A program made the translations under genes and the position numbers. Below, in pieces: positions 27,468-31,922 of a stretch of 37,510 nucleotides of DNA (the first letter of the stretch is position 1; each line of letters begins with the position of its first letter). This DNA comes from Flavobacteriales bacterium (lineage in GTDB: Bacteria; Bacteroidota; Bacteroidia; Flavobacteriales_D; Crocinitomicaceae), in the NCBI GenBank assembly GCA_947476955.1, contig CANJSS010000011.1, forward strand, positions 1 to 37,510. Direction: 5' to 3'. Under the pieces are notes generated by a model. It made no database searches, was not told where the DNA came from, and saw only the letters and a program-made list of their open reading frames with translations.

Positions 27468-28421
27468 TTAGGAAAACAATGAATCTACAAATTCATGTTT
27501 ATTGAATAGTTGCAAATCTTCAATTCCTTCCCCAACACCGATGTATTTAACTGGGATTTTCATTTGATCTGAAATTCCAATCACCACGCCTCCTTTTGCA
27601 GTTCCATCCAATTTTGTAATTGCCAAAGCATTAATATCCGTAGCTAAAGAGAATTGTTTCGCTTGTTCGAATGCGTTTTGTCCTGTTGAGCCATCCAAAA
27701 CCAGCAGTATTTCATGCGGTGCATCTGGAATAACTTTTTCCATTACCCGTTTGATTTTGGTTAATTCGTTCATTAAATTAACTTTATTGTGCAACCTGCC
27801 TGCTGTATCTATTATAACCACATCTGCACCCTGAGATTTCGCAGATTGCAAAGTATCAAACGCAACGGAAGCTGGATCTGCGCCCATTCCTTGTTGAACA
27901 ATCGGCACGCCAACTCTATCCGCCCAAATTATTAATTGATCTACTGCTGCTGCTCGAAAAGTATCGGCTGCACCTAAAACTACTTTCTTTCCTGATGCTT
28001 TGAACTGGTGTGCTAATTTTCCAATTGTTGTTGTTTTTCCGACACCATTTACACCAACCACCATAATAACGTGGGGCATTCCACCGTGCTTTTCCACTTC
28101 AAAGTTACCCGTATAATCCGCATTATTTTCTTCTAACAATGCTGTAATCTCTTCTTTTAAAATTGTATTTAATTCATTCGATCCTAAAACTTTGTCCCGA
28201 GAAACACGTGCTTCAATTCTTTCAATTATCTTTAAAGTTGTATCTACGCCAACATCAGAGGTAATTAATACCTCTTCCAAATTATCCAGAACCTCATCAT
28301 CCACTTTGGATTTACCAACAATCGTTCGCGCAATCTTTGATAAGAAAGTATGTTTCGTTTTTTCAAGTCCTTTATCAAGACTTTCTTTTTTTTCTTTTGA
28401 GAACAATCCAAAAAATGCCAT
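27468..28421 (-). CDS. ftsY: Signal recognition particle receptor FtsY
   Basis: 317 residues. The NG module is complete: N-domain four-helix bundle at about 20-95, G1 P-loop GVNGVGKT at 123-130, DTFRAAAVDQL at about 153-163, DTAGRL at 205-210 and TKLDGTAKGG near 273. It receives SRP-bound ribosomes at the membrane and hydrolyses GTP. The long acidic A domain of E. coli FtsY is missing, leaving only a short basic N-terminus starting with FFGLFSK, as is common outside Proteobacteria. It lies downstream of the ribosomal-protein genes rpmB, rpmG and DUF4295, beyond a terminator-like hairpin, and upstream of the ACMSD-like gene. Confidence 0.97.
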   Translation of the reverse strand: MAFFGLFSKEKKESLDKGLEKTKHTFLSKIARTIVGKSKVDDEVLDNLEEVLITSDVGVDTTLKIIERIEARVSRDKVLGSNELNTILKEEITALLEENNADYTGNFEVEKHGGMPHVIMVVGVNGVGKTTTIGKLAHQFKASGKKVVLGAADTFRAAAVDQLIIWADRVGVPIVQQGMGADPASVAFDTLQSAKSQGADVVIIDTAGRLHNKVNLMNELTKIKRVMEKVIPDAPHEILLVLDGSTGQNAFEQAKQFSLATDINALAITKLDGTAKGGVVIGISDQMKIPVKYIGVGEGIEDLQLFNKHEFVDSLFS

Positions 28422-28471
28422 ACGGATATACTAATCGGTAATTATGAGAGATAACTAAAAGGTAAAAATAA

Positions 28472-28505
28472 GAAAAGCTTCCATTCAAATGAAAGGAAGC
28501 TTAAC
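28472..28505 (-). terminator. Terminator-like hairpin after DUF4295
   Basis: An 8-bp GC-containing stem (28475-28482 with 28495-28502) with a 12-base loop, followed on the minus strand by a T-rich stretch. It lies between the DUF4295 stop and ftsY and probably reduces read-through from the ribosomal-protein genes into ftsY. An AAAAGGTA on the plus strand (TACCTTTT on the minus, 28457-28464) could be a weak ftsY -7 box just after it. Confidence 0.65.
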
Positions 28506-28525
28506 TAAATATTTTAACGTAAGGA

Positions 28526-28681
28526 TTAGTTCTTATCGAACCACTCTTTAACTTTGTCGTTGTGAACGATTTCTTCTTTAAAAGTAAAAGAACCTGACTT
28601 TTCAGACTTGATCATTTTAATCACTTTTGTATGTTCTTTTCCGCCACCTTTTTGTAACGTTGCTACTACTTTCTTTGCCAT
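28526..28681 (-). CDS. DUF4295 protein, possible lineage-specific ribosomal protein
   Basis: 51 residues, very basic and rich in Lys, starting MAKKVVATLQKGGGKEHTKV and ending EWFDKN. The small size, basic start like L33's, and place directly after rpmG (7 bases between) in the rpmB-rpmG operon match the Bacteroidota family DUF4295. From memory, a novel small protein called bL38 was found in the Flavobacterium johnsoniae ribosome structure; this family is a good candidate for it, but I cannot confirm the identity from sequence alone. It ends just before a terminator-like hairpin. Confidence 0.85.
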   Translation of the reverse strand: MAKKVVATLQKGGGKEHTKVIKMIKSEKSGSFTFKEEIVHNDKVKEWFDKN

Positions 28682-28688
28682 GATTCAA

Positions 28689-28877
28689 TTATTTAATCTC
28701 CTTATGAACCGTCATACGCTTCAAAATAGGATTGAATTTCTTAATTTCCATACGATCAGGAGTATTCTTTCTATTCTTCGTTGTAATGTAACGAGAAGTT
28801 CCAGGTTTACCTGACTCTTTGTGCTCTGTGCACTCAAGAATTACTTGAATTCTATTACCTTTTGCTTTCTTAGCCAT
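28689..28877 (-). CDS. rpmG: 50S ribosomal protein L33
   Basis: 62 residues, matching L33 over its whole length: [23 protein letters not shown] and [19 protein letters not shown] are typical. Only one Cys (in LECTEH) is present and the CxxC pairs that bind zinc in some L33 copies are missing, so this is the zinc-independent form. It sits between rpmB (49 bases upstream) and DUF4295 (7 bases downstream). Confidence 0.97.
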
Positions 28878-28926: not shown

Positions 28927-29163
28927 TTATTTTAGATAGCCTTTCTCGCGTGCTTCTTTTATGCAAGCGGAAATACCTTTCTTGTTAATTGTTCTTAACG
29001 CTGAAGTTGAAATTTTCAACGTAACGAAACGATCTTCATCAGGAAGAAAAAACTTCTTGGAGATTAAATTCGGGTAGAATTTACGTTTCGTTTTGCGGTT
29101 GGAGTGAGAAACATTATTCCCTACCATTACCGATTTACCCGTAAGTTGACAAACTCGTGACAT
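28927..29163 (-). CDS. rpmB: 50S ribosomal protein L28
   Basis: 78 residues, full length. It shows the L28 pattern: [25 protein letters not shown], then the strand with [18 protein letters not shown] and a basic end. The start ATG is preceded by about 70 AT-rich bases downstream of cinA. A TTACTTTG stretch there is a one-mismatch -7 box, so rpmB may begin its own operon with rpmG and DUF4295. Confidence 0.97.
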
Positions 29164-29236: not shown

Positions 29237-30490
29237 CTACTTTTTTTCAATTATTAACCCTAAAAGCTCGCATCTCACTAAATTTAAGGCGGTTAGAACT
29301 GTCATTTGGATATTTCTTTCTCGCTCATCTCCAAATTGAAACTGAAAAGAATGGGTTCTTTCCGCCAATGAAATCGCAATAAAGACTAATCCAACCGGTT
29401 TTTGAATTGTTCCACCGTCCGGACCTGCAACTCCAGAAGTTGCAATGCACAAATCAACTCCCAATTTTTCTCTGCCATTTTTAGCCATTTGCTCAACAAC
29501 TTGCTTGCTAACCGCGCCAAATTCGGCTAAATTAGTTGCAGAAACGCCAACTAGTCGTTGTTTTAATTCGTTGCTATATGTTAAAAAACTCCCAGAAAAA
29601 TAGTCCGATGCGCCTGCAATTGCGATAATACTATGGGCTAAAGCTCCTCCAGTGCAGCTTTCTACTGTTCCTATCTTCAACTTTTTTTTACGCAACAAAT
29701 CGCCAACAATCTGTGGCAATGTATCTTCCTCTTCTCCAAAAATATAGCGCGGGAACCTATCTTTCAACACCGTTAAATAGGCGTTTATCTCTTCTTTTCG
29801 TGAAATTCCTTCGTAAGACGTAATGCGCAGTTTCACGAGTCCTGGAGAAGGTAAATAAGCGAGTTCCAATCCACTTTCTCTTACTTCATTCTCCCAGCTG
29901 GCGATACTTTCTGCTAAAAAGGACTCACCTATTCCTTGCGTCAAAATGGTTTTGTGGTAAATTCCTTCCAATTCGAAACGTTGTTTCAAGCGAGGAAAAA
30001 CCTCATCCAACATGATTCCTTTCATTTCATAAGGAACACCAGGCATACTGATCAGAACTTTTTCCGAATGATTAAACCACATCCCTGCGGCAGTTCCGTT
30101 TAAATTTGGCAAAATTTCACATTTTTGCGGTAATTCGGCCTGTCGTATATTAGATTCGAGCATTGGGCGATTGCGCCGTGAGAAAAAACCTTCTATTTGC
30201 TGCAATGTTGGTAGGTGAATCTCCAATTCTGTATCAAAATATTCGCACAATGTGTGTTTTGTAATATCGTCTTTTGTAGGACCTAAGCCACCGGTTACTA
30301 ATAGTATATCACTGCGTAAAAATGCTGCATCAATTGCATGTATAATCGCTGATTTGTCATCTGAAATAGTCGTAACATGCACCACACGTAATCCAATTTT
30401 TGAGCATTGCTGACCAAGCCAAGTTGCATTGGTGTTTACCGTTTGACCAATCAATAATTCGTCACCAATCGATAGAATTTCAACTTTCAT
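29237..30490 (-). CDS. cinA: CinA-like protein (competence/damage-inducible) with nicotinamide-nucleotide amidase domain
   Basis: 417 residues from the ATG at 30490, chosen over an ATG 33 bases upstream because the protein family begins with MKVEILSIGDELLIG. N-terminal MPT-binding/COG1058 domain: TGGLGPTKDDITK at about 66-78 and MPGVPYEMKG. C-terminal PncC amidase domain: ESCTGGALAHSI, FGAVS and SGVAGPDGG, the catalytic residues of the enzyme that deamidates nicotinamide mononucleotide for NAD recycling. The start overlaps the end of the rlmD-like gene by 11 bases, so the two are translationally coupled. Confidence 0.94.
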   Translation of the reverse strand: MKVEILSIGDELLIGQTVNTNATWLGQQCSKIGLRVVHVTTISDDKSAIIHAIDAAFLRSDILLVTGGLGPTKDDITKHTLCEYFDTELEIHLPTLQQIEGFFSRRNRPMLESNIRQAELPQKCEILPNLNGTAAGMWFNHSEKVLISMPGVPYEMKGIMLDEVFPRLKQRFELEGIYHKTILTQGIGESFLAESIASWENEVRESGLELAYLPSPGLVKLRITSYEGISRKEEINAYLTVLKDRFPRYIFGEEEDTLPQIVGDLLRKKKLKIGTVESCTGGALAHSIIAIAGASDYFSGSFLTYSNELKQRLVGVSATNLAEFGAVSKQVVEQMAKNGREKLGVDLCIATSGVAGPDGGTIQKPVGLVFIAISLAERTHSFQFQFGDERERNIQMTVLTALNLVRCELLGLIIEKK

Positions 30491-31922
30491 GCGTTCGCAG
30501 TTTAAATTTTGCAATCGATTCAATATGACCGGTATGTGGAAATTGGTCTACCAAAGAAATTTTTTCCAATGCATAACCGGCTTTTGCTAATGTTTCAGCA
30601 TCTCTTGCTTGTGTAGATGGATTGCAAGAGATGTAAACGATATTCTCTGCTCCCAATTCGATTGTTTTAAGCAATGTCTTTGGTGCAATTCCAGCGCGCG
30701 GCGGATCTAAAATTATTGTTGAAATCGTTCCTATATATTCAGGGTGTTCTTTCAGAAATTTCCCGACATCTGCTGCATAAAAATTTATTCCATGGATGTT
30801 ATTTCTTTTGCAGTTTCTTTTTGCATCTTCAATTGCTTCTGCGACGATATCCACGCCAACAATCTCCACATTTGCTTTTCGAGTGGATAGAATTTGTCCA
30901 ATTGTTCCTGTTCCGCAAAACAAGTCCATCACTACTTTTCCTTCCGGAATTTCTTCCTCAAAAACATAGTTCAAGGCTTTGGTATACAATTTTTCGGCAC
31001 TTTTGGGATTCGTCTGAAAAAAGCTTTCCATGGAAATTTCAAAATTCAATCCCAATAATTTTTCAACGACCACTGCTTCCCCGCAGACCAATTTCCATTG
31101 GCCATTTTCTATTTTCGAGCGGTCGGCAACATTGTCGTTTACTGTATGTTGAAATCCAGCAAGTCGTTTCCCTAATTTTTCTTTCAGAAAATCTGCAAAT
31201 GCTGCTACGTCAAAGATTTCAATTCCATCTGAGGAAGTTACTAAATTTAACAATAACTGATCGTGCTCAAAGGATTTACGGACGACTATATGTCTAAAAA
31301 AACCTTCTTTTTTTGGTGGATGCCAAGCTGGCAAGCCAGTTTTTTGAAGAAAAACTCTAACATCTTTTAGGATTGTTTCCCACTGTTCATCAAATAAGCC
31401 GCTAGGTTTGTTTAAACTTTCCACCTTCCACCAAGTTCCACGTCGTTTGAAACCCAGGGCAAAGGCACCATCTTTTTCTTCGCCCGTTTCTAAATCGTGT
31501 TCAATAGTTGAAAAACTATATTCCATTTTATTACGATAATAGTAATGGTTTGGAGAAGATATAAATTCATCAAATCGCTCATTTAAATCGCGAATATTAG
31601 AAATTCTGCTAAAAACCTCTAAGGTTGAATTTTTCTTGTATTCTTCTTGCAGTTCAATTGGCACAAAAATATATGGTCCGCCTGAAATCTCTTGAAAAGG
31701 TAAAATAACTTCCTCTTTTGATCGCCGAATAATATCTTGGAATTTCGCTTCAGCGTGGCGTTTTCTTTTTTTCTCAATTTTGGCTCTAACCAATTGGCCA
31801 GGAAAGGTATTATCAACAAAAACTACATATTGACCGTTTTCAGTTTCTACCCTGGCTATTCCGCGCCCTCCGAAGGCATAATCGGAAATTTCTAATTCTA
31901 CACTATCCCCTCTTTGAAACAC
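30480..31922 (-). CDS. RlmD/TrmA-family RNA (uracil-5-)-methyltransferase lacking Fe-S cysteines
   Basis: 480 residues. N-terminal TRAM RNA-binding domain at about 1-60 (GDSVELEISDYAFGGRGIAR). The methyltransferase core has DLFCGTGTIG at 333-342, DPPRAG at 406-411, the catalytic Cys433 in SCNPST and the general-base region HIES near 466. RumA/RlmD enzymes methylate uracil-5 in 23S rRNA, so that is the likely job. The oddity: in this family an iron-sulfur cluster is held by cysteines near residues 74-100 and at about 170, but this protein has no Cys before residue 280; the site reads ISGGPYIFVP and NKPSG. It begins 34 bases after lpxA, and cinA overlaps its end. Confidence 0.88.
   Translation of the reverse strand: MFQRGDSVELEISDYAFGGRGIARVETENGQYVVFVDNTFPGQLVRAKIEKKRKRHAEAKFQDIIRRSKEEVILPFQEISGGPYIFVPIELQEEYKKNSTLEVFSRISNIRDLNERFDEFISSPNHYYYRNKMEYSFSTIEHDLETGEEKDGAFALGFKRRGTWWKVESLNKPSGLFDEQWETILKDVRVFLQKTGLPAWHPPKKEGFFRHIVVRKSFEHDQLLLNLVTSSDGIEIFDVAAFADFLKEKLGKRLAGFQHTVNDNVADRSKIENGQWKLVCGEAVVVEKLLGLNFEISMESFFQTNPKSAEKLYTKALNYVFEEEIPEGKVVMDLFCGTGTIGQILSTRKANVEIVGVDIVAEAIEDAKRNCKRNNIHGINFYAADVGKFLKEHPEYIGTISTIILDPPRAGIAPKTLLKTIELGAENIVYISCNPSTQARDAETLAKAGYALEKISLVDQFPHTGHIESIAKFKLRTHES

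Follow-up and report, generated by a model that had tools for sequence, protein, structure and literature searches.

The window (the whole 37,510-nt stretch that we analysed) is from contig CANJSS010000011.1 of a Flavobacteriales genome (GCA_947476955.1). On its minus strand we find, in order, a cinA-like gene, rpmB, rpmG, a short open reading frame, and ftsY (Table 1). (The name of the first of these is tentative.) The short frame opens with ATG, the gap between it and the rpmG stop codon is 7 nt (28682-28688), and its product is Lys-rich (12 K/R versus 7 D/E, pI 9.7). A preliminary description of this DNA had placed a Lys-rich protein of 51 residues 7 bases after rpmG, in an L28-L33 neighbourhood, and had remarked that its start is like that of L33. 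The coordinates, strand, length, ATG and gap were all confirmed; Pfam and NCBIfam both recover bL28 and bL33; and the similar start is the sequence MAKK, which the two proteins have in common.

Table 1. Features of the bL38 locus in the window, and groups of bL38 loci from other genomes (listed by locus number).
Feature	Position or loci	Strand	Evidence
cinA-like gene, upstream of rpmB	29237..30523	-	same strand; tentative name
rpmB, bL28	28927..29163	-	PF00830, 97.8 bits; TIGR00009
rpmG, bL33, type without CxxC...CxxC	28689..28877	-	PF00471, 67.7 bits; NCBIfam PRK00595.1; type from sequence
bL38 / DUF4295 gene, 51 aa, Cys-free form	28526..28681	-	PF14128, 87.6 bits; phmmer to 9i5t_15, E = 4.6e-14, and to 7jil_4, E = 2e-6
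bL38 codons 1-15, N-terminal tail	28637..28681	-	52-row family alignment; AlphaFold2 model; solved chains
bL38 codons 17-40, beta-hairpin (strands 17-25 and 32-40)	28562..28633	-	AlphaFold2 model, mean pLDDT 84.7
bL38 codons 41-50, C-terminal helix	28532..28561	-	AlphaFold2 model
hairpin AAGCUUCC...GGAAGCUU, then U-rich stretch; probable intrinsic terminator between bL38 and ftsY	28475..28502	-	folding
ftsY, next gene downstream of bL38	27468..28421	-	TIGR00064, 361 bits
bL38-bL31-bS18 loci	L131, L132, L134, L135, L138-L142, L144, L145		
Cys4 bL38 loci	L148-L159, L198-L239		
graded zinc-knuckle loci (CPKC...CSNC in L243)	L240-L245		

The 51-codon frame is a real gene, far beyond chance. Its product matches PF14128 (DUF4295) well above the gathering cut-off of 27 bits, with residues 2-48 covering positions 1-47 of the 47 in the profile. 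Compared with the homolog from a genome of the same family (locus L003), the 51 codons show 14 synonymous and 4 non-synonymous differences. A search of the window's own 2.7 Mb genome with the Pfam model gave this single match. NCBIfam (release 20) has no family for the protein at E ≤ 0.001, and this may explain the continued use of the name "DUF4295." The preliminary description had also warned that such a short gene is easily missed by gene callers, and there is one published case. In PMC5395568, a 50-residue DUF4295 frame of Flavobacterium columnare ATCC 49512 is among the novel coding regions that were recovered from expressed intergenic regions. Table 5 of that source gives the frame a virulence-database match to "merozoite surface antigen." This label is probably spurious, because the DUF4295 family is bL38 (see below).

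A hairpin begins 24 nt past the bL38 stop codon (that is, with 23 nt between them). The 70 nt at 28456-28525 (minus strand) fold with -17.8 kcal/mol (z = -6.15 against 200 shuffles). A rule-based terminator scan listed no terminator past bL38, and it was folding that identified the hairpin. Because this stable hairpin and a U-rich stretch follow the bL38 stop codon, rpmB, rpmG, and the bL38 gene are probably one transcript that ends before ftsY. Promoters of Bacteroidota differ from the sigma-70 type, so a sigma-70 scan (6 sites versus 2.6 expected) was set aside.

The preliminary description had suggested, with reference to the Flavobacterium johnsoniae ribosome, that the DUF4295 protein is bL38, and had proposed a comparison with the bL38 chain from that structure. 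The comparison bore this out. The F. johnsoniae 70S structure contains a chain labelled "50S ribosomal protein L38" (7jil_4), and the window protein shows full-length homology to it (residues 1-50 to 1-49; E = 2e-6). A second chain, 9i5t_15 from the Porphyromonas gingivalis 50S subunit, was deposited as a DUF4295 protein and has a still better phmmer score (E = 4.6e-14). These were the only two distinct sequences in the PDB to match the window protein at E ≤ 10. With a profile that was built from an alignment of 52 bL38 relatives (profile A1), the same two sequences were found at E = 4.7e-20 (9i5t_15) and E = 1.9e-16 (7jil_4), and there was no other match up to E = 10.

The predicted structure is consistent with this. 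The AlphaFold2 model of the window protein (mean pLDDT 84.7) has a tail, a hairpin, and a helix (Table 1), and the first three PDB rows from Foldseek are bL38 chains of P. gingivalis and F. johnsoniae, with probabilities of 0.98-1.00. The E values are only 0.025-0.28 because the solved chains have just 34-36 residues. VIA-align superimposes the model on the bL38 chains with Z = 3.7-3.9 (rmsd 1.7-2.0 over 34-36 residues); the next row is unrelated and has Z = 2.8, which counts as tied by that tool's own note. It is the sequence match, not the fold, that carries the identification; the fold supports it but is weak alone. We are close to certain that the 51-residue product is orthologous to bL38, which is a structural component of the 50S subunit, and it is an ordinary member of that known group rather than a new ribosomal protein. 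By analogy with the orthologues in the ribosome structures of two species, it would be located on the ribosome of this organism as well.

Of the two solved relatives, the F. johnsoniae protein (PDB 7jil chain 4, with the same sequence in 9oz9, 9ozn, 9ozz, and 9p0e) has the same MAKK start and a hairpin-helix body like that of the window protein. It differs in having a one-residue gap near position 13, and identity over the 36 modelled residues is 42%. The P. gingivalis chain (chain 15 of 9i5t and 9i5v) is the closest solved relative (53-54% identity over the modelled part) and shows no notable difference from the window protein other than its deposited name, which is DUF4295 protein and not bL38. 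In both species the chain is modelled only from residue 14 or 15 onward. Yet conservation in the 52-row family alignment is among the highest at M1, A2, and K3, the first two of which are invariant.

A protein that is also called bL38 was described in the Borreliella burgdorferi ribosome (gene bb0162; 8fmw and 8fn2). According to PMC10618245, it occupies a similar place on the 50S subunit to the F. johnsoniae protein, in structurally conserved surroundings. It contacts rRNA helices H97 and H95 (the helix of the sarcin-ricin loop) as well as uL6 and uL14, and an influence on GTPase binding was suggested. The same source reports that it is displaced by 14 Å from F. johnsoniae bL38 and is internally different, with an extra strand and helix. 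No Borrelia chain matched profile A1, or the Cys4 profile that is described below (A4), at E ≤ 10; the presence of 8fmw and 8fn2 in the search set was checked via the L28 chain only.

If the binding site is alike in the window's organism, then the hairpin-helix body (residues 16-50) would, by analogy, dock near uL6, uL14, and 23S rRNA helices H95 and H97. The basic tail (residues 1-15) may reach into neighbouring rRNA or stay mobile. At the site used in F. johnsoniae, the protein would stiffen or prop the base of the factor-binding region, and most likely this would help assembly or the docking of GTPases. Given the probable cotranscription with rpmB and rpmG, bL38 would be made in step with other proteins of the large subunit. 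Literature searches by name found no paper on a bL38 mutant and no functional test of bL38.

To examine the distribution of bL38, we used 198 genomes from the GTDB phylum Bacteroidota with completeness of at least 90, including the window's own genome. The Pfam DUF4295 model matched 108 of these at E ≤ 0.001 (78 over the cut-off): all 49 genomes of the window's class, its own included, and 59 of the 149 others. Among 14 named control genomes, this model had a single match, in Bacteroides ihuae. Profile A1 matched 184 of the 198 genomes, with one match each. Its 52 source sequences come from the same 198 genomes, so they match by construction, and all of them were already Pfam matches; the gain over Pfam is 76 genomes (184 - 108), none of which contributed to the profile. 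When the Cys4 query and profile are added, bL38 forms are found in 197 of 198 genomes, including 148 of the 149 outside the window's class. Two of the 197 (G164 and G180) rest on single-query matches with E = 0.005 each, and the Cys4 profile gives 1.4e-4 and 2.9e-11 for these. The sole genome without a match to A1 or to the Cys4 query is a 1.6 Mb assembly (G189). Among 49 genomes with the FMO antenna protein (PF02327), which we take to mark Chlorobia within this phylum, 48 have a bL38 match. The preliminary description had called the protein lineage-specific. The term fits only when it is taken to cover Bacteroidota, in the GTDB sense, in full.

A pattern scan (A3), derived from four sequences, confirmed 20 of 126 stretches; its patterns are narrow and say nothing on absence from other phyla. 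Sixteen of the 20 loci are from organisms named Rhodothermales, Rhodothermaceae, Rhodothermus, or Roseithermus, and the other four are named only as Bacteroidetes or Bacteroidota bacterium. The order L28-L33-bL38 is present in 19 of the 20, and the twentieth locus starts at a contig end.

We also examined the gene neighborhoods of 70 bL38 loci (the 30 best Pfam matches and 40 that were chosen from the other 78). L33 lies on the same strand, 2-95 nt upstream of bL38 (median 22 nt), in 59 of the 70. For the other 11, there was no L33 in the DNA that was fetched around bL38. Homologs of the cinA-like gene are present in 15 of the 70 loci, most of which carry little DNA on that side. One locus (L042, 1902-2048) encodes an acidic bL38 with a short tail, which is unusual for a ribosomal protein and would be expected of a salt-in halophile.

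A different arrangement was found for the more divergent proteins. In 11 of 18 genomes with weaker A1 matches, bL38, bL31, and bS18 are encoded in a row on one strand (the bS18 of two of these loci and the bL31 of one were checked by Pfam). We do not know of this gene order from elsewhere. As a second ribosomal gene order, it supports a ribosomal role for the divergent forms of bL38.

The lead to another form of the family was a weak A1 match in genome G120, to a 64-residue protein with CPKC and CKC motifs. With this protein as the query, 13 of the 14 genomes that lack an A1 match had a hit, with E values from 2.9e-28 (G097) to 0.005 (G164 and G180). Eleven of the 13 proteins have four cysteines (Cys4), and the two weakest are Cys-poor. 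The Cys4 proteins have a common start (MAKxxxFA[DE]K), a hairpin, and the motif CPxC...CKCNEK, with the first pair of cysteines preceding strand 1 and CKCNEK immediately following strand 2. In an alignment of 11 of these sequences (A4), every row has the four cysteines, as does a twelfth sequence (L159). The corresponding profile had 50 matches in the 198 genomes: 12 were strong (100-119 bits, in the Cys4 genomes) and 38 were weaker.

Among the 245 genomes of the class that includes G120, 68 have an A4 match of at least 68 bits along the whole profile. We inspected 42 of these and all 42 have CxxC...CxC. Overall, four cysteines are present in all 47 separate genomes that were inspected (12 from the first sample and 42 from the second, with 7 in both). 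One of the 245 genomes (G328) has two A4 matches, and 59 have none; among the 20 of these 59 that were listed, three (G009, G047, and G109) carry the Cys-free form. Three Cys4 proteins that we searched had no family over cut-off in Pfam or NCBIfam, and Cys4 bL38 would have stayed hidden because neither database models it.

The four cysteines probably hold a zinc ion. In the PDB, the Cys4 profile had nine matching sequences up to E = 10, none of which is a bacterial ribosomal protein, and the best was the zinc finger protein "Aart" (E = 0.0081, with no stretch passing alone). Foldseek with the model of a Cys4 protein gave no match at E ≤ 0.001, and the best four rows were serine integrase complexes (E = 0.18-0.57).

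Other sequences fall between the two forms. Genome G236 has CPKC...CSNC, two relatives of G236 from the same family (f44) have DPDSGKE at the same turn and no cysteine, and three genomes of family f39 have CPDTNKE or CPDTGKE there, with one cysteine. As read from the sequences, these intermediates are a graded loss of the metal site. An RpoB tree was made for 30 of these genomes, with no outgroup, and at least three changes are required to explain the Cys4 state on it. (One RpoB match, at L197 (G172:C1:124629-126163), is split over two frames, which reflects a frameshift in either the assembly or the gene.) The Cys4 rows of the tree are in family f11 and in a second group (f13, f18, f25, f29, and f37; support 89/87). 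Within that second group, the Cys-free G093 sits beside G120, a Cys4 member of its family. The Cys-poor G180 and G164 are at the base of Cys-free groups, at forks with moderate support (89/86 and 90/84). The simplest reading of this unrooted tree is that, in the part of the phylum it covers, the ancestor had the Cys4 form and descendants lost it.

Pairs of zinc and zinc-free ribosomal proteins include bL31, bL33, and bL36, and bL38 resembles these in having Cys4 and Cys-free forms within one family. To our knowledge, bL38 has not been counted among them, and it looks like an unrecognised pair of this kind. In the same genomes, bL33 likewise occurs with and without cysteines. The CxxC...CxxC type of bL33 is present in 11 of the 12 Cys4 genomes (no bL33 was found in the twelfth, G016) and in none of the 59 L33 proteins from the first 70 loci. 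The link between the two proteins is loose: G093 keeps cysteines in L33 only, and the L33 of three other genomes whose bL38 is Cys-free (G140, G152, and G164) keeps some cysteines. We also noticed that in several of the loci with CxxC-type L33 (L091-L100), L33 is followed, by eye, by a tRNA-like gene and a SecE-like frame; there was no L28 within the DNA examined at these loci. Because the two forms of bL38 occur in different genomes, nothing points to a switch between them in response to zinc inside a single cell.

Could bL38 have arisen by duplication of bL33, with the MAKK start retained? The genes adjoin, the proteins are of similar length, and their first four residues are identical, but BLASTP found no alignment of the two at E ≤ 100, which refutes paralogy at the level of pairwise sequence similarity. 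Also, the two proteins fall into separate Pfam families, and each match spans almost the entire profile. Because bL38 and bL33 do not align, the shared MAKK is no sign of duplication, and we give this idea practically no chance. It is also very improbable that the window protein remains attached to ribosomes only as a factor for 50S assembly or hibernation, or as an RNA-binding regulator of the rpmB-rpmG operon. The most conserved end of the protein is unmodelled in the solved ribosomes, which would suit a mobile end or an alternative partner, and our literature searches found no functional test. But orthologues are present in ribosome structures from two species of Bacteroidia, the sampled genomes have one bL38 match each, and the gene sits in two different ribosomal-protein gene orders.

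A more serious doubt is whether the Cys4 proteins are zinc ribbons of other descent, with a chance likeness to bL38, in which case the 12 sampled genomes that bear them would lack bL38. The DUF4295 model had no match to two of the three Cys4 proteins and only a match below cut-off to the third (E = 0.036); the gene is found behind a GAF-GGDEF gene, not behind rpmG, in all 12 loci that we looked at; and the model is only fair (pLDDT 73). When 610 chains were compared with this model by VIA-align, two reached Z ≥ 2. The higher score (Z = 2.3) went to an unrelated chain, and P. gingivalis bL38 came second with Z = 2.0 (rmsd 2.8 for 34 residues). Yet hhalign aligns A4 with A1 at a probability of 97.3% (E = 2.3e-11), with the hairpins in register. 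The Cys4 profile also finds Cys-free bL38: of the 36 weaker A4 matches other than G164 and G180, 31 could be compared, and all 31 were on the gene that A1 or Pfam had found. Furthermore, no genome in the sample of 198 has both forms, and the intermediates with one cysteine or none keep the turn (CPDTNKE or DPDSGKE) and link the extremes. We therefore consider chance resemblance unlikely. On the sequence evidence, the Cys4 form is homologous to Cys-free bL38, and we infer that it too is located on the ribosome. In related lineages, a predicted Cys4 zinc site, absent from the window protein, would hold bL38 together.

Overall, we think it likely, with less confidence than in the identity of the window protein, that bL38 is an ancient constituent of the ribosome across the whole GTDB phylum Bacteroidota (Bacteroidia, Chlorobia, Rhodothermia, and further groups), with an undescribed Cys4 zinc-ribbon form (CPxC-hairpin-CKCNEK) and Cys-poor or Cys-free forms that arose by repeated loss. 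In open-licence articles from PMC, titles and the starts of abstracts revealed nothing on bL38 beyond F. johnsoniae and Borrelia, and nothing on a Cys4 form. The window's bL38 is itself already explained; what may be new to a specialist is how far the family extends and that it has a Cys4 form.

The window gene still goes by "domain of unknown function," and its annotation can now be changed to ribosomal protein bL38. Because the profiles and the Cys4 query reach 148 of 149 genomes outside the window's class (as compared to 59 of 149 for the Pfam model), bL38 may be useful as a marker for the phylum. By the same reasoning, one subunit protein may be missing from the ribosome models and protein counts of Chlorobia, Rhodothermia, and their relatives. 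If our reading of the family is true, then bL38 is a further ribosomal protein with zinc and zinc-free forms. With its Cys4 form, bL38 would join the zinc-holding ribosomal proteins, and living lineages would show the steps by which a zinc site decays.
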